A DNA stretch of 62,474 nucleotides from an uncultured Bacilli bacterium (GTDB lineage: Bacteria > Bacillota_I > Bacilli_A > RFN20 > CAG-826): the NCBI GenBank assembly GCA_905235515.1, contig CAJOLV010000006.1, positions 1 to 62,474 on the forward strand, in the 5' to 3' direction. Within the stretch, counting starts at the first letter, position 1, and each line of letters begins with the position of its first letter. Below are positions 40,641 through 52,715 of the stretch, one piece after another. A model generated the notes under the pieces. The model was not told where the DNA came from and made no database searches. It saw nothing but the letters and a program-made list of their open reading frames with translations. The position numbers and the translations under genes were made by a program.

Positions 40641-42944
40641 ATGCGCAATTCTAGAAAAACATTATTAAATGTTTTAATGGACAACCTGTTCTGCTTATTT
40701 GATTTAGCTTTAATTACACTTTTAATTATATTTATAATTAATAAATCATTTTTGTACATCCCTCCATTGTTCATCGCCTTTACTACTTCTATTTTTAGAT
40801 TAGTTTTAAATATTAAGCATTATGTGGTTTATAAACCATTTGATTGGACATGCCATGTTTTAATCGACGGCCAAGAAACCGAAAAAAGATACGATAAAGT
40901 TGAAGTTGGTGATTTGGTTTGTGTATATCCAAAGGAAATAATTAATTACACCGGTCTTGTAAAAAGTGGAATGTTATTTGTTGATGAAAGCAAAATTAGT
41001 GGTGAAACAAGAACAATTAAAAAGGGTATTGGAGATAGAATTAGACAAGGATCTATCATAGTTAACGGCAATGGTGTAATTGAGATATTGTCATTAGATA
41101 GACAAATTGCAAGACCAAACAAAGTCCAAAACACTTTCTTTGTAAAAGCATTAAAAATGTTTAATGACATTTTAGGCGGAATAATTGTTTTATTGATTGT
41201 CTTAACACTCATATTCAATAAAGAGAATCTTTATAATACAGCGTTGGGATGTGTGGCGACACTACCGTTCTTTATGAATTTATTAATTACTATATATTTA
41301 TATATAGAGTCAAAAACTTACCACACATTTAAAGCCAACGATCTCACTGGAATCGCAAATTTCGGTAGAATGGATACCTTCTGTTTTGATAAAACAGGAA
41401 CCATCACAGATTTGCAATTTGAGGTATTTAAAACCATTCCTATTCAATCACAATCTTTAAACCAAATATCTTTAGATACTAACCGAGCGTTGTCTCAAAT
41501 AGTATCGGATGTTATTAAATCTACAAACGAAAAAGGTGGATATTATTCAGCTTTAAGAAATTACTTTATTTATGATGTGAGCAAGGTTGTTGAGTTTTCA
41601 TCACCAATTTATGAGAATGGCTTTTATTCTGTTGCGTCGTTTAAAGGCAACAAGATATACGCTATTGGAAGCGAAGATAGTTTTGATCTTTCTAATAACG
41701 ATTCTATTGCTGGATTAATTAATGAATATAAAGCTTTAGGATATTATGTTTTGGTGGTTGCTGAAGCAAAAACCATATCAGAAACCGGCTTAATTGAAGG
41801 AAAATCAGTTGGTATTGGTTTAATTATCATTCAAGAAACCGTTCGCGAAAATGTTAAACAAATGATTAAAAACATCTATAAAAATGGTGGGGATATTAAG
41901 GTTATTTCAGGAGATACCTTAGCAAATACTGCTGAGGTATGTCGAAAAGCCGGGATTGAAAATACCGACAAAGCTGTCGCTATTAACAAAATGCCTTTTG
42001 AACAATTAGATTTGATTGTTGATGAAACAATTATTTTTGCAGACGCATCTATGTCGCAAAAGGCATACATAGTAGAGCAGCTTAAAAAGCATGGCCGCAA
42101 AGTAACATTTATCGGTGACGGCGACAACGACACTCAAGCAATGAAGGCATCTGACCTTGCTATTACAGTAAGTGGTTCCTCTGAATCAGCGCACATGTGT
42201 TCTCATATCACACTTAAAGATGATTTTGTTTATGACCAAGACACAATTAATAGATGTAGAAAGGTCCGTAACAATGTTTTAACAATTATGTTATTAAATC
42301 TTTCTCAATCTGTGTTTGCTTCTGTGATTGGAACCATATTCTTTATTTGTAATTTGGTTAATAAAACAATTGTTAATCCATTTACTTATGATCACCTGGT
42401 TTTTTGGGCCTTGTTTGGTGCTTTCATACCTTCGGTTCTCATTTTGTTAAATAGAAAAAGTGATGAAAACGCGAAAGTAAGTTTCAAAAGAAACTTGATT
42501 GCAAATTCATTACTCTATATGCTTCCTGTCGCGGTAATATATCTATTTCAACTTTTGCAATATTATGGAGTTGGTTTTATTGCTATTACATCAGATTATA
42601 ACGAAATGCATGAGATGTTAATTACATCACAAACCGCTAATAATTTGTGTTATCTTTCTTTAATTTTAGCAGCTATGTTTATTGTTTATAGAATGTATCA
42701 ACCATTAAATAATTTCAGAATTTTAGCCCTGCTAGGTATTTATTTAATCCCGTTAGTGTATTTTATTTTGATTGGTTTTGGTGTGAATAATTTAGAATCA
42801 ATTACAAACATCAAAACATCTATTATTACCCCTGTTCAATTCTTTGTTGGTTTGGCCATTACAATAATTGCAGCAAGTTTACATTTATTGATTTTACAAA
42901 TAATTAAAACTTTGAGAGGAGATAAAGACAATGCTAAAAATTAA
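40641..42944 (+). CDS. P-type (E1-E2) cation-transporting ATPase
   Basis: Membrane ion pump, ion unknown. Actuator domain SGET (KISGETRTIKKG), phosphorylation site DKTGTITD, and hinge GDGDNDTQAMKASDLAI are present. The hinge has Asp in place of the usual Val of GDGVND. Two helices lie near the start and about six at the C-terminus. No heavy-metal-binding N-terminal domain and no CPC motif, so a CtpE- or Ca/Mg-like pump is more likely than a copper pump. The start is set at 40641, just after the tadA terminator; longer frames run back into tadA. 768 residues. Overlaps psuG by 14 bases. Confidence 0.85.
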   Translation: MRNSRKTLLNVLMDNLFCLFDLALITLLIIFIINKSFLYIPPLFIAFTTSIFRLVLNIKHYVVYKPFDWTCHVLIDGQETEKRYDKVEVGDLVCVYPKEIINYTGLVKSGMLFVDESKISGETRTIKKGIGDRIRQGSIIVNGNGVIEILSLDRQIARPNKVQNTFFVKALKMFNDILGGIIVLLIVLTLIFNKENLYNTALGCVATLPFFMNLLITIYLYIESKTYHTFKANDLTGIANFGRMDTFCFDKTGTITDLQFEVFKTIPIQSQSLNQISLDTNRALSQIVSDVIKSTNEKGGYYSALRNYFIYDVSKVVEFSSPIYENGFYSVASFKGNKIYAIGSEDSFDLSNNDSIAGLINEYKALGYYVLVVAEAKTISETGLIEGKSVGIGLIIIQETVRENVKQMIKNIYKNGGDIKVISGDTLANTAEVCRKAGIENTDKAVAINKMPFEQLDLIVDETIIFADASMSQKAYIVEQLKKHGRKVTFIGDGDNDTQAMKASDLAITVSGSSESAHMCSHITLKDDFVYDQDTINRCRKVRNNVLTIMLLNLSQSVFASVIGTIFFICNLVNKTIVNPFTYDHLVFWALFGAFIPSVLILLNRKSDENAKVSFKRNLIANSLLYMLPVAVIYLFQLLQYYGVGFIAITSDYNEMHEMLITSQTANNLCYLSLILAAMFIVYRMYQPLNNFRILALLGIYLIPLVYFILIGFGVNNLESITNIKTSIITPVQFFVGLAITIIAASLHLLILQIIKTLRGDKDNAKN

Positions 42945-43836
42945 TCCAGAAGTACGAAAGGCACTTGAAGAAGGGAAACCAGTAGTCGCTTTAGAAAGTA
43001 CAATAATTTCTCATGGTATGCCATATCCTAAAAATGTCGAAACAGCCTTATTGGTTGAAAAAACAATTAGAGACCATGGTGTAGTGCCAGCGACCATTGG
43101 AATTATTGATGGTAATCCAGTTGTTGGAATGACACCTGATGAAATAGAAGAATTTGGTAAAAAAGAAGGCATTATAAAAGCATCCAGGCGTGATTTGCCG
43201 GTAATTTATGCGAAAAAGTACTGGGCTGCTACTACTGTTGCAACCACTATGATTATTGCCTCTCAAACTGGAATTGACTTATTTGTTACAGGCGGTATTG
43301 GTGGTGTTCATAGAGGAGCCCAAGAAACAATGGATATCTCCGCCGACTTACAAGAATTAGCAAAAACAAACGTTACAGTTGTTTGTGCCGGTCCAAAAGC
43401 AATTTTGGATCTCCCTTTAACTTTAGAATATTTAGAAACACAAGGTGTACCTGTTTTAGGTTTTAAAACAAAAGAACTTCCAGCTTTTTACACTCCTCAC
43501 TCTGGTCTGAAAGTTGATTATCAAATCGATTCATATGAAGAAGCTGCTTTAGTGATGAAAGAAAAAAGAGCTATTGGGCTTCAAGGTGGCATTTTGATTA
43601 CTAATCCAATTCCAGAGCAATACGCTATGGACCAAAAAGTAATTGATACCGCTATTAAGACTGCTCTTATGGATGCTCAAAGAGATGGTATTAAAGGCAA
43701 AGAAGTTACCCCTTATTTATTAAAAACGATTGTGGAAATTACTGGTGGAGACTCCCTAGAGTCAAATATCAAACTAATTTTAAATAACGCTGCTGTTGGA
43801 GCGGAAATAGCAAAAGCATATTGTAAGATTAAATAA
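42931..43836 (+). CDS. psuG: Pseudouridine-5'-phosphate glycosidase
   Basis: Cleaves pseudouridine 5'-phosphate to uracil and ribose 5-phosphate. The family is very conserved: ALESTIISHGMPYPKN, VGMT, SRRDLP, TTVATTMIIA, FVTGGIGGVHRGA and CAGPKAILDLPLTLEYLET. 301 residues. GAGGAG precedes the ATG. No kinase psuK is beside it; the FGGY kinase elsewhere in the window is not of that family. Confidence 0.95.
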   Translation: MLKINPEVRKALEEGKPVVALESTIISHGMPYPKNVETALLVEKTIRDHGVVPATIGIIDGNPVVGMTPDEIEEFGKKEGIIKASRRDLPVIYAKKYWAATTVATTMIIASQTGIDLFVTGGIGGVHRGAQETMDISADLQELAKTNVTVVCAGPKAILDLPLTLEYLETQGVPVLGFKTKELPAFYTPHSGLKVDYQIDSYEEAALVMKEKRAIGLQGGILITNPIPEQYAMDQKVIDTAIKTALMDAQRDGIKGKEVTPYLLKTIVEITGGDSLESNIKLILNNAAVGAEIAKAYCKIK

Positions 43837-43838
43837 TT

Positions 43839-44408
43839 ATGAAAACAGAACACGAACTAGCTTTAACTCTTAAAACCATGATGGCGGAAGTTCCACTTGA
43901 TGAAATATCAGTAACTTCATTAACCAAAAGATGTCACATCAATAGAAAAACATTCTATTATCATTTTCATGATATTTTTGACTTACTCACCTTGGTGTTT
44001 CTTGATGAAAATATCCCTGGTGTAACCGAAACAAAAGATATTAACCAATTAATGAAATTGATATTTGCCTATTACACAAAAAACTACAAGTTTATTGATG
44101 CAACTCTTAATTCTGCTGGTAAAGACTTGGTTCGTGAGTTTTTCTTCAACAATTGTTATACAAGTTTTTTAAGATATATCGCTGCTATTCCAGATGGCAA
44201 GAAATTACACATCAACGATCGTAAATATATAGCTAGATTTTATTCATTTGGATATTCTAATTCCATCATTTACTATCTCTCCACTTATAAAAACAAGACT
44301 TTTGCAGGAATGATGAATTGTTTTAATTTCCAAAGCAAAAATGTTTTAGAAGACGCAGTTAATAATTTATTAAAAACAAAGGAGAAAAAGACCTATGTTG
44401 AACTTTGA
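43839..44408 (+). CDS. TetR/AcrR-family transcriptional regulator
   Basis: The N-terminal helix-turn-helix (ISVTSLTKRCHINRKTFYYHFHDIFDLL) is typical of TetR repressors. The C-terminal ligand domain resembles the DhaS-like subgroup. 189 residues. Two bases after psuG and overlapping the alcohol dehydrogenase by 14 bases, so it may control this operon. No obvious operator was recognised. Confidence 0.85.
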   Translation: MKTEHELALTLKTMMAEVPLDEISVTSLTKRCHINRKTFYYHFHDIFDLLTLVFLDENIPGVTETKDINQLMKLIFAYYTKNYKFIDATLNSAGKDLVREFFFNNCYTSFLRYIAAIPDGKKLHINDRKYIARFYSFGYSNSIIYYLSTYKNKTFAGMMNCFNFQSKNVLEDAVNNLLKTKEKKTYVEL

Positions 44409-45576: not shown

Positions 45577-46716
45577 ATGAAAAAACAAGATTTTGCTGGA
45601 ATTATCGTTTATGTTATCATCCTTGCTTTAGCGGCGGTTTTTGGGTTGGTTGTTATCAGAGAATATTCACCTAAAAGTGGTTTAAGTTCTGGAATCTTCA
45701 TTCTATTTGTTGCTGGTGCGATTGTTTCTGGTGTTATTTTTAACGCTATATTATTTGAACTAGCTCATATTGTTGGAGCTAAAGTTGGTGGTTATAAAAT
45801 CACATTTGTTTCTATACTTGGATTTACTTTTAATAAGGTTGATGACAAGTTTAAATTCCGTTTTTCTTCCTATGATGGATTAACTGGTGAAACAAGAATA
45901 ATTCCTAATTTAAAACGCAAAAAACCTGCAAATCCCATTCCTTATTTGATTTTTGGCACTGTTTTTTATGCAATTGAAGTTATCGCAGTTGTCTTGTCTT
46001 TTGCCATTTTAAAAAGAGATGAATTGCCGATATCTGTTAATAATATTGCTTATTTCTTATTAATCATTATGGCTGTTGGTGGAATGATTCTTTTCTATAA
46101 CATTATTCCATTTAGATTAGATTCTATGACCGATGGTTATAGATTGAGATTAGTCTCTGGAAAGAAAAATAAGGAAGCGTTTAACGCTATGTTATTAGGC
46201 GAAACGGTGTCCACAGAAGAATCGCAAGAAGAACAAAATGCTTCTTCGTTTTCTAGTGACATTAAAGTTAATGAATTGTATGTTTGTTTGAATGAAGATA
46301 AATTTGTTGAAGCAGAACAAATAACTGATGCTATCATCGAAGACAGCAAAACAAACAAGAAAATTAGTAATAAGGCTTTAATCGAATCTAAAGCCAATAA
46401 AATTTACCTTATGTTTGCGAATCATGACTTTGAAGAAGCGAAAAAATATTGTGAAGATAGTTTTTCACTCCATGACAAAAAGGAATTAAGTGAAGAAAAC
46501 AATCTCTCATGTTTGCGTGCATATATATTGTTATCTGGATTAGTTGATCGTTCACGTTCCGAATGTGTAAGATCACTAGATAAGGTTTATAGATTATATA
46601 AACACACGCCTGAAGAAAAAAGACGGCTTGAAACCAAACTATTTAATATCGCGATTGAAATGATTGCTGAAAAACACCCTGATTGGGGAATAAGCGATTA
46701 TCGAATTAACGCATAA
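45577..46716 (+). CDS. Membrane protein with degenerate M50-like core and cytoplasmic tail
   Basis: Four or five hydrophobic segments occupy residues 7-27, 38-60, 122-143 and 155-180. The second ends in FELAH (residues 60-64) followed by VGAKVGGY, which looks like the HExxH helix of site-2 proteases with the first His replaced by Phe. The segment NIIPFRLDSMTDGYRL (175-190) resembles the third metal-ligand region (NxxPxxxxDGxR). The C-terminal 170 residues are soluble and helical, perhaps TPR-like. A catalytically altered M50 homologue is an inference. Six bases after the alcohol dehydrogenase and followed by a terminator. Confidence 0.55.
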   Translation: MKKQDFAGIIVYVIILALAAVFGLVVIREYSPKSGLSSGIFILFVAGAIVSGVIFNAILFELAHIVGAKVGGYKITFVSILGFTFNKVDDKFKFRFSSYDGLTGETRIIPNLKRKKPANPIPYLIFGTVFYAIEVIAVVLSFAILKRDELPISVNNIAYFLLIIMAVGGMILFYNIIPFRLDSMTDGYRLRLVSGKKNKEAFNAMLLGETVSTEESQEEQNASSFSSDIKVNELYVCLNEDKFVEAEQITDAIIEDSKTNKKISNKALIESKANKIYLMFANHDFEEAKKYCEDSFSLHDKKELSEENNLSCLRAYILLSGLVDRSRSECVRSLDKVYRLYKHTPEEKRRLETKLFNIAIEMIAEKHPDWGISDYRINA

Positions 46717-46719
46717 TTT

Positions 46720-46745
46720 AAAACAGCACAAGTGCTGTTTTATTA
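46720..46745. terminator. Bidirectional terminator between convergent genes
   Basis: AAAACAGCA (46720-46728) pairs with TGCTGTTTT (46733-46741) around CAAG. It separates the M50-like gene from the surface nuclease gene. Confidence 0.8.
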
Positions 46746-47078
46746 TTCTCTCTTTTTCTTAAGTTTCAAAAGCACAAAACCTGTAATTGACGTTAAACTT
46801 ATCAACACACTACTAACGACAACCGACCCGCCACAGCCAGTCGATGAGTGGTCTTGTGGTGCTTGACCATCTTGATTTACTACAATAGTGCATTCAGCTT
46901 CAAAATTACCATCACTCGTAACTACAGTAACTTTTGCTATGCCTTCTTTTAAACCATTCACTTTAAATGAAGTTGGAGTTTTGTCGGAAACGCTAATGAT
47001 AGTGTAGTTACTAACTAAAATTTCATAGTTTTTATTTGATGCGTTAGCAGGAGCAAAAATCGGTGTTAAGGCAATACT
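46743..47078 (-). pseudogene. Cut-off 3' part of the endonuclease I gene: Big2-like domain and membrane tail
   Basis: Directly after the in-frame TAA of the nuclease gene, the same frame stays open for 111 codons. It encodes the rest of a bacterial Ig-like (Big2) repeat: SIALTPIFAPANASNKNYEI, NGLKEGIAKVTV and EAECTIVV. A linker, a GCGG motif, a hydrophobic segment and LKKKRE complete it. Because frame and domain continue across the stop, this looks like the natural C-terminus of the nuclease, separated by one nonsense codon. No convincing own start or ribosome binding site was found (an internal ATG at 46961 has none). Confidence 0.7.
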
Positions 47079-47966
47079 TTATCCTTTTGCAACATATCTT
47101 GTGTTTTCTTCAAAAGAAACGCCTGTAACTGCTGTGCCACCATCGTGTGTTGAGCCATCGATTGGATCTGGGGATTTATATTGTGTGTAGCCTTCAAAAA
47201 TCTTGTTTGCGTAAGATGGATGATCAACGAATGGATTTCTATTCCCTTGCAAAGTATAAACCTTGTTATTTCTATATATTTCTCTTGCTGTTACTGGATG
47301 TTCTGCATGCCATTTCAAACAAGTTGAAGTATCAACAAAAATATCTGTTAATTTATAGCCATAATAAACAGTGCAATACATACACGCTCTGGCAATTTCA
47401 CCTTTAGCGTCATCACAAGGTTCGAAATAACCGCCAGAAGATTTGCATCCAGTATCATGCCCAAAGACACTCACGGTTGTTGTAACATTATCTAATTGAG
47501 CAAACTTATCATTATCTCTAATTTGGTTAATTTGTCCTTCACAAGCGAAGATATTGTGATTATCAGTGTTTGAGTTTGGGAATTTTGTTTGAGTATAAAC
47601 GTGTTCTCTATTCCATTTGTCCCAAGCATAGGCTCCACAGTGACTACTCTTTTTGATAGTGTGTCTTGTATAAATAGAAAGAATACTAGTTGAATCACCT
47701 TCCGCTTCATCAGCAGCCTCATATCTAGACCAGTCGTAACTTGGTTTGGTTGGTTTGTTAAAATTACTTAACGCGTTTACTAGGAAATTACCATATAAAT
47801 CATCGCAACTTGAATAGTAGGAAGCTGAGACGCTACATTGTTGTTCTCCAGACCACGCTGAAACAACTTTTTCTTTTTCTGGAGTTTTTATTGCAACCGC
47901 AGAAAAAGCCAACGCACTAAAGGCTAGCAGTGGAGTAAATAAATTCTTTAATAATTTGCTTTTCAT
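47079..47966 (-). CDS. Secreted endonuclease I family nuclease, interrupted by a stop
   Basis: Signal peptide at residues 1-26 (LLAFSALAFSAVA). The endonuclease I (EndA/BsnA-like) core carries WNREHVYTQTKF with the catalytic His, a downstream His/Asn cluster (TDNHNIFAC) and the typical GNRNPFVDHPSY. Unusually Cys-rich. After the nuclease domain a Big2 domain starts (AVTGVSFEEN), but TAA ends the frame at VAKG, where this domain usually has a Lys, Gln or Glu codon. The stop can therefore be explained by one base change. The product may be a released, still active nuclease. 12 bases after a lipoprotein gene, so probably co-transcribed. Confidence 0.8.
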   Translation of the reverse strand: MKSKLLKNLFTPLLAFSALAFSAVAIKTPEKEKVVSAWSGEQQCSVSASYYSSCDDLYGNFLVNALSNFNKPTKPSYDWSRYEAADEAEGDSTSILSIYTRHTIKKSSHCGAYAWDKWNREHVYTQTKFPNSNTDNHNIFACEGQINQIRDNDKFAQLDNVTTTVSVFGHDTGCKSSGGYFEPCDDAKGEIARACMYCTVYYGYKLTDIFVDTSTCLKWHAEHPVTAREIYRNNKVYTLQGNRNPFVDHPSYANKIFEGYTQYKSPDPIDGSTHDGGTAVTGVSFEENTRYVAKG

Positions 47967-50523: not shown

Positions 50524-50554
50524 AACTCGGCTATACCGAACTTTTATTTTGTAT
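50524..50554. terminator. Weak bidirectional terminator
   Basis: TCGG/CCGA with an outer AAAA/TTTT pairing and an internal mismatch, followed by T-rich sequence, between the convergent DUF47 and lipoprotein genes. Confidence 0.4.
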
Positions 50555-51301
50555 AACCTATCTCTAAGGAATGTAGGAACACCCTTCCATCAAGACTACC
50601 TAGTGTTATGGATTTAACTGGACTAGAATATTCTTCACGTTTTTCTATTTTTTGAGGTGTTTCTCCCTCACTTAATGTTAAGTTGGTAACATTTGTTTCG
50701 TTATCGATATAAAACCTTGCTTCACTATCAGCGTTATAAATCAATGTATCTGTTCCTGGGGTTGTCCAAGTATCATAGTATGGTTTTGAATAAGCCTCGA
50801 TATTGACTTTAATATAATTAATATCGTAATTGAAATCTAATTTTAGAGTTCCATCTTCACTAGCTGAACCGACCCACATATATAAGTTTTTAGAGACCAC
50901 TTCTTTTTGTTTTTAATCTCGATGTAATTAATGTTGATGTGATCTGATATAACAATAGATTTAAATAAATCCGTTTCACCATTTAAGAAATTTAAAAATC
51001 TATTTTTAGCGGTCTCGTTATTTAATTCTCCTGCTGGAGCTTGATTATCAAACACAATTGTCTTTGTGTAAGTTCCATCTGTGTTTTGTTGATCCTCATC
51101 GCCATCATCGATAGGGGTTACGGGTGTTGGACCAGGGATATCCGTGTTAGTATTTTCATTATTTGTCTCATTGCTTGGTGGTTGATCATTGTTGTCTATT
51201 TGATTGTTTTCTGGTTCTTTTGTTGCGCTTTCTCCGTGCAAATCAAGAGTGCATCCTGTTAATAATGTTAGACACAACAATGGTATTAATATCTTTTTCA
51301 T
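50544..51301 (-). pseudogene. Lipoprotein gene split by a frameshift
   Basis: The 5' part (51301 to about 50909) encodes a lipoprotein signal (LLTGC lipobox, Cys near residue 17), an Asn/Asp/Pro-rich linker and NINYIEIKNKK. It then runs out of frame to a stop at 50843. The 3' part, in another frame from about 50908 to 50544, continues naturally with EVVSKNLYMWVGS and a beta-rich domain with DINYIKVNIEAYSKPYY. The break lies in two adjacent A5 runs on the minus strand (plus positions 50904-50914); one extra A restores a single frame of about 250 residues. It may be a mutation, a phase-variable tract or a sequencing error. Function unknown. Confidence 0.65.
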
Positions 51302-51359: not shown

Positions 51360-52715
51360 ATGGGTCAAATTGTTAGAGGAAAATGTTTAGATATATCATC
51401 AGAAGGTAAAGGTGTTGCTAAAGTTGGTAAGAACATCTATTTTGTTGATGGCTTGTTTGTTGGTGAAGAAGCTGATATAGAAGTCCTTTATCAAAGAGCG
51501 GGCGTGTATTTTGGCAAAGTCAAAAAACTATACACACTATCAAAAGATAGAATCCAACCAAAATGTAAAGTTTGTACTTCTTGTGGCGGTTGCCAATATC
51601 AACAAATTAATTATCAAACCCAATTGGAATATAAAACCAAAAGAGTGAAAGAAGCTCTCACTAGAATTGGTGGTGTTAAAACAAATGTTTTGCCATGCCT
51701 TGGTATGAATAATCCATATTATTACCGCAACAAAATTCAAATGCCTTATGGCAAAGATAGAAAAGGCAATGTTGTTTACGGCTTCTTTAAAGAAAACTCA
51801 CATGAAATCATCCCTGTTAAAGAATGTGTTATTGAAGATAAAAGAGCGGCATCTATTCTTTGGGATATTAAAGAATTAGTAAAACAGATGAATATCCCTA
51901 CCTATAACGAAGATAATGGGAGAGGTATTTTAAGATATGTCCTTATTAGAACGAGTTATCATTACAAAGAATTAATGGTGGTGCTTGTTACATCAATAAT
52001 GAATTTTCCTGGCCAAAGGAATTTTATTGACGCTTTGGTAAAATTGCATCCAGAGATTACCACCATAGTGGAGAACATTAACAAAAGACACACAAATGTA
52101 ATTCTCGGTAATTCAGAAAAAGTGCTTTATGGACCAGGCTACATTAAAGATAAGATACTTGATTTAACATTCGAAATTAGTGCCTCTAGTTTCTTCCAAG
52201 TGAATCCTGTTCAAGTTGAAAAACTATATCAAAACGCACTTGAATTAATCAAAATTGATGAAAAATCAGTTGTTTTAGATGCCTATTCAGGAGTAGGGAC
52301 GATTGGTTTAATTGCCGCTAAAAATGCCAAAAAAGTTATATCTGTGGAAATTAATAGATCAGCCCACGAGAACGCAAAAGAAAACGCCAAACGTAATGGT
52401 GTTACAAATATTGAGTTCTATTGTGATGATGCCGGACACTTCATTGACAATTATCAAGGAAAGATTGATACAGTAATCATGGATCCACCTAGAAAAGGTA
52501 GTGATGAAAAGTTCTTATCAGTATTGATTAGAAATAGCATAAAACAAATTGTGTATATATCTTGTGACCCAGAAACCTTAGCAAGAGACATCAAATATTT
52601 GTCTTCACACTATGGGGTTACTTATGTCCAACCTGTTGATATGTTTCCAATGACCGCTCACGTTGAAACAATTTTATGCTTATCTTTGATAGGCAACAAA
52701 ACCTCAAAAAACTAA
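51360..52715 (+). CDS. TrmA/RlmD-family RNA (uracil-5-)-methyltransferase
   Basis: SAM-dependent m5U methyltransferase for tRNA or 23S rRNA. N-terminal TRAM domain, a Fe-S cysteine cluster (CKVCTSCGGCQYQ), SAM motif (LDAYSGVGTIGLIAA), and the catalytic Cys in YISCDPETLARD with MDPPRKG before it. The Fe-S motif points to the RlmD/RlmCD type. 451 residues. Divergent from the split lipoprotein gene. Confidence 0.92.
   Translation: MGQIVRGKCLDISSEGKGVAKVGKNIYFVDGLFVGEEADIEVLYQRAGVYFGKVKKLYTLSKDRIQPKCKVCTSCGGCQYQQINYQTQLEYKTKRVKEALTRIGGVKTNVLPCLGMNNPYYYRNKIQMPYGKDRKGNVVYGFFKENSHEIIPVKECVIEDKRAASILWDIKELVKQMNIPTYNEDNGRGILRYVLIRTSYHYKELMVVLVTSIMNFPGQRNFIDALVKLHPEITTIVENINKRHTNVILGNSEKVLYGPGYIKDKILDLTFEISASSFFQVNPVQVEKLYQNALELIKIDEKSVVLDAYSGVGTIGLIAAKNAKKVISVEINRSAHENAKENAKRNGVTNIEFYCDDAGHFIDNYQGKIDTVIMDPPRKGSDEKFLSVLIRNSIKQIVYISCDPETLARDIKYLSSHYGVTYVQPVDMFPMTAHVETILCLSLIGNKTSKN

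Follow-up and report, generated by a model that had tools for sequence, protein, structure and literature searches.

A nonsense codon inside a Big_2 domain probably separates an exported nuclease from its C-terminal membrane anchor in an uncultured Bacilli genome

The DNA analysed here, a stretch of 62,474 nt from an uncultured Bacilli genome (the window), probably holds a single gene for an anchored nuclease that is now cut by a nonsense codon inside its Big_2 domain, with the anchor lost as a result. This reading draws on one ancestral frame, a complete nuclease domain, an intact anchor that has been severed from it, no second anchor, and relatives in which the gene is intact, all of them seen in the sequence, and we infer that the organism itself carries the stop and acquired it recently. 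The event would be ordinary in kind and would require no new mechanism; most likely, a mutation has recently broken the gene, or else the sequence contains an error.

The gene lies on the minus strand (46743-47966), where translation gives a frame of 295 aa (47079-47966) that ends at an in-frame TAA (47079-47081). Beyond this stop, the frame continues for 111 open codons (46746-47078), which comprise the rest of the Big_2 domain, a linker, and the anchor tail, up to a second and final TAA at 46745-46743. An earlier note on this DNA had described an Endonuclease I gene with a single in-frame TAA in its Big_2 domain and 111 further codons that complete the domain and add a transmembrane segment and a basic tail. 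Both points hold, as translation, Pfam, and a Big_2 search of the genome that allowed reading through stops agree on the former, and the Pfam and tail profile matches bear out the latter. The post-stop open frame is not a product of chance, the probability of 111 open codons under a dinucleotide Markov model being ~4e-4, and the G+C content by codon position stays the same across the stop, with 0.42/0.43/0.25 ahead of it and 0.42/0.41/0.26 behind it. This unspoilt codon-position pattern, together with 295 + 111 codons that contain no further stop or frame break, makes it rather unlikely that the gene is a long-established pseudogene with a useless product, even though a nearby lipoprotein gene is frameshifted and a paralogue on contig C14 could cover the function. 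Divergence from the relatives (~60% identity) is similar after the stop and in the start of the Big_2 domain before it, and neither shows nor excludes decay.

Upstream of the stop, the protein begins with a putative signal peptide without a lipobox (residues ~1-25, MKSKLLKNLFTPLLAFSALAFSAVA; 47892-47966, minus strand), read from the sequence by eye, and then carries an Endonuclease_1 domain (PF04231; residues 78-250; 47217-47735, minus strand; Pfam E 5.5e-29) that is complete, scoring 102 bits versus a curated cut-off of 25. The conserved NREH, DNHN, and INxxRxN motifs are all present in this domain, and N119, R120, E121, H122, N138, N147, R150, and N152 were invariant in an alignment with five relatives. 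By analogy with Vvn/EndA, the core residues among these (EH, N, RxN) are presumably catalytic. The NCBIfam full-length equivalog NF011716 was not reached (41 bits versus a cut-off of 372). In its NREH...DNHN...INxxRxN core and its predicted export by a signal peptide, the window protein resembles E. coli EndA and Vibrio Dns, which belong to the same family (PF04231). Endonuclease I of E. coli is a soluble periplasmic protein, whereas the homologues in the order studied here are built either with a lipid anchor at the N-terminus or with an Ig-like linker and membrane tail at the C-terminus.

The Big_2 domain cut by the stop (PF02368; 46884-47132, minus strand) matches the whole model (positions 1-79) with 42.4 bits, which is above the cut-off, and has one TAA inside it, while the genome's 24 further Big_2 matches contain no stop. 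Even the post-stop part alone is matched by the Big_2 model (Pfam E 9.3e-7). The usual Trp of these repeats is missing from the window's domain, which scores 42 bits versus 70 for its counterpart in the relative G023, and the domain might already have been loosely constrained. In an alignment of 24 Big_2 domains (23 of the same genome and one of a relative), the position of the stop is occupied by E in 7, D in 5, S in 3, Q in 2, K in 1, other residues in 5, and a gap in 1; the suggestion that Glu, Gln, or Lys usually stands at this position was therefore a fair one.

The relatives are uninterrupted. The paralogue on contig C14 of the same genome (584 aa, 59% identity) and the closest relative, in G023 (414 aa, 61% identity), share the order nuclease, Ig-like domain(s), and Gly-Cys tail, and both are read in one piece. 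Nuclease and tail are likewise kept in one frame in G110 (427 aa) and in several other distant members of the family, and the three close relatives found in the species-level genome collection are all uninterrupted; a search among viral contigs returned no close relatives. The earlier note had advised inspecting sister genomes, and in the genus mate G001 the corresponding slot is indeed filled by an uninterrupted nuclease with such a tail, 475 residues long and ending in GCKGSVIAGSVIVSTTSLLGVGLLLIKKKKD. As in the window, it converges on the orthologue of the neighbouring gene (45577-46716, plus strand, 379 aa; 61% identity in G001), and further flanking genes of the window also have orthologues there (42931-43836, 85%; 43839-44408, 74%; 51360-52715, 82%). 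The nuclease in the G001 slot is only 29% identical to that of the window and may be a substitute and not a strict orthologue, but the locus shows that a tail-bearing nuclease is what occupies this slot within the genus. Synteny around a phosphate transporter led only to G016, where the 9 kb read contained no match to the window nuclease. Within the reach of these comparisons, the fused nuclease-tail form is ancestral, and it is the normal state of the family.

The same comparison bears on whether the stop simply separates two genes, one for a short secreted nuclease and another for a Big_2 membrane protein. Many homologues are indeed nuclease-only and end just past the domain, but nearly all of them carry a lipobox, which the window protein lacks. 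Moreover, the post-stop part starts in the middle of a domain, lacks a signal peptide, and has its first possible start codon (ATG, GTG, or TTG) only ~40 codons in, a GTG at 46961, and nuclease and Big_2/tail parts were found as separate genes in none of the relatives inspected, a case that the earlier note had named as telling against its own reading. We consider this two-gene arrangement scarcely credible. A recurring stop at the same position, suggested by ~10 homologue matches with an internal stop, was also rejected, these being the normal ends of nuclease-only genes. A palindromic terminator-like stem (46719-46742) lies between the convergent genes and directly 3' of the TAA that ends the read-through frame; although scored on the plus strand only, it is probably common to both genes and used on the minus strand as well, and its position would agree with the nuclease and the post-stop stretch forming one transcription unit.

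It is possible, although we lean against it, that the TAA is a metagenome assembly error or a base from a minority strain, in which case the real gene would be whole and its product anchored. The genome is a draft in 49 contigs with 92% completeness, and two more frame breaks were met by chance, in the lipoprotein gene at 50544-51301 and in a CPBP gene on contig C5. However, the window has 50 long frames (18,633 codons), among which the expected core genes are present at full length, the observed breaks are confined to accessory surface and membrane genes, as in true gene decay, and assemblies are less prone to a substitution that creates a stop than to an indel. The broken lipoprotein gene (minus strand), 2.6 kb from the nuclease, is split by its frameshift into the overlapping frames 50843-51301 and 50544-50900; its relatives are single intact frames of 211-256 codons, one of them in the corresponding place in G001 (L163:2069-2701). 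The CPBP (Rce1-like) protease gene on contig C5 of the window's genome, G000 (L161:1307-2061, minus strand), is apparently frameshifted and appears as two frames that overlap, 155 and 126 codons long; another CPBP-family protease gene of this genome, on contig C12, is intact.

The earlier note had also left room for read-through. Programmed or leaky, it would let one gene give mostly released nuclease plus some anchored nuclease. The post-stop tail is intact and gives a full profile match, as such a mechanism would need, but among the long frames of the 62,474-nt window TAA is the most frequent stop, terminating 38 of the 50, and none of the relatives inspected has the in-frame stop, so that there is no conserved read-through signal. 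Read-through thus seems very unlikely here. A change in the genetic code was rejected on the same count of TAA-terminated frames and is unlikely.

With a nonsense mutation as the preferred explanation, the ancestral gene would have encoded a secreted nuclease of the Endonuclease I family, held on the outward-facing side of the membrane by the Big_2 linker, the Gly-Cys motif, the transmembrane helix, and the basic stop-transfer tail. Translation would now end after residue 295, which would keep the nuclease domain and ~45 further residues and lose the anchor. Release of the truncated protein into the medium is to be expected because it has no lipobox either and its membrane helix is lost, and this would be the simplest outcome, with a product that is presumably active and soluble; alternatively, the protein may be degraded if the half-made Big_2 end is unstable. 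Of the earlier proposal that the stop turned an anchored nuclease into a secreted one, the loss of the anchor through the stop is borne out by the intact tail-bearing relatives, while the released and working product stays a prediction.

We surveyed the anchors of 57 complete Endonuclease I homologues of the order (loci L001-L101), the window copy included. Rule-based classification gave 25 with a lipobox and no C-terminal helix, 24 with a C-terminal helix and basic end and no lipobox, 0 with both, and eight with neither. After reading by eye, a lipobox was assigned to 29 of the 57 (the 25 found by rule plus L011, L031, L062, and L065, where the rule had missed it on account of the start codon or one residue), a C-terminal helix to 24, and both to none. 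What remained of the eight were L063, which has no readable N-terminus, two tandem genes of G025, and the window copy. The two G025 genes have a signal peptide and no visible anchor, and they alone in the survey seem to encode proteins secreted free of the cell; the locus concerned (G025:C25:2000-8000, L068) holds three tandem endonuclease I genes, one of which encodes a lipoprotein. Judged by these sequence features, most of these nucleases are tethered to the cell through either their N- or their C-terminus. The rule that emerges from the survey is a single anchor per protein, at one of its two ends, and the window copy would be among the very few exceptions. Each of the three other nuclease genes of the genome (on C14, on C3, and on C11) encodes an anchored protein, and the severed copy would be the only unanchored nuclease there. 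The severed copy matters modestly, in that it falls in a gene group with a clear anchor rule, and it may offer a natural test of why bacteria keep this nuclease on the cell.

Exported nucleases that are kept on the surface are also described in Gram-positive bacteria. Nuc2 of S. aureus is reported to be cell-attached, the released and attached nucleases of this species being the products of separate genes (PMC3994088), and S. sanguinis is reported to have an exported, cell-wall-anchored nuclease (PMC4118848). The anchored form of the nuclease described here resembles both in principle, being exported and retained at the surface. The anchors there are different ones, and the present gene differs from the two-gene system of S. 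aureus in that detachment would arise by a stop codon within one gene.

The part of the locus most worth following is the Gly-Cys tail itself, a repeated module without a convincing model. In the window it spans 46746-46862 (minus strand) and is identified by alignments and by profile matches with E 3.8e-18 and 9.2e-18. Its layout consists of a linker, Gly-Cys (Cys codon 46833-46835), a transmembrane helix (~46767-46823), and the basic end KLKKKRE, and the post-stop part ends STGCGGSVVVSSVLISLTSITGFVLLKLKKKRE. A profile built from ten tails found 10 strong matches in the genome (E below 1e-5), all at the ends of long frames save the severed one, which fits the profile as well as the attached tails do. 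A 17-tail profile had matches in 68 of the 224 genomes of the family, in 77 of the 279 of the order, and in 15 of the 395 that were sampled from the class. Among the tail matches listed in the family, a frame of fewer than 120 codons occurred only in the window and on G110:C17; the latter, a 58-codon frame, was rejected as a second severed tail, since it sits at the end of contig C17. Gly-Cys is present in 17 of 17 tails and in 30 of 30 further loci from the class search, all loci having been chosen by a profile that rewards Gly-Cys, and other C-terminally anchored homologues lack it; this invariance describes the group and is no proof of function.

Neither Pfam nor NCBIfam gave a convincing model match for the tails. 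LPXTG_anchor weakly matches 8 of the 17 (best TIGR01167, E 0.0024), but an assignment as LPXTG sortase substrates (TIGR01167/PF00746) failed, as the tails have no LPXTG motif and that of the window matches no family. The MYXO-CTERM model (TIGR03901) matched one of the 17 (E 0.046). The tail can be regarded as a possible new Cys-type sorting signal. A much bolder proposal would be that it is an undescribed C-terminal signal of this type in uncultured relatives of Bacilli, where the Gly-Cys would acquire a lipid and an intramembrane protease would cut off the helix, with strains switching the nuclease between held and released by a stop codon; we consider this proposal improbable. The tails do carry the features that characterize MYXO-CTERM, namely an invariant Cys before the helix and a basic end, and they resemble both MYXO-CTERM (TIGR03901) and JDVT-CTERM in combining a short invariant-Cys motif, a transmembrane helix, and a basic end (PMC11980579). 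In MYXO-CTERM, processing by a CPBP-family protease depends on the Cys (PMC11980579). The hosts are different, as MYXO-CTERM occurs in Myxococcota, whereas the tails described here occur in uncultured relatives of Bacilli.
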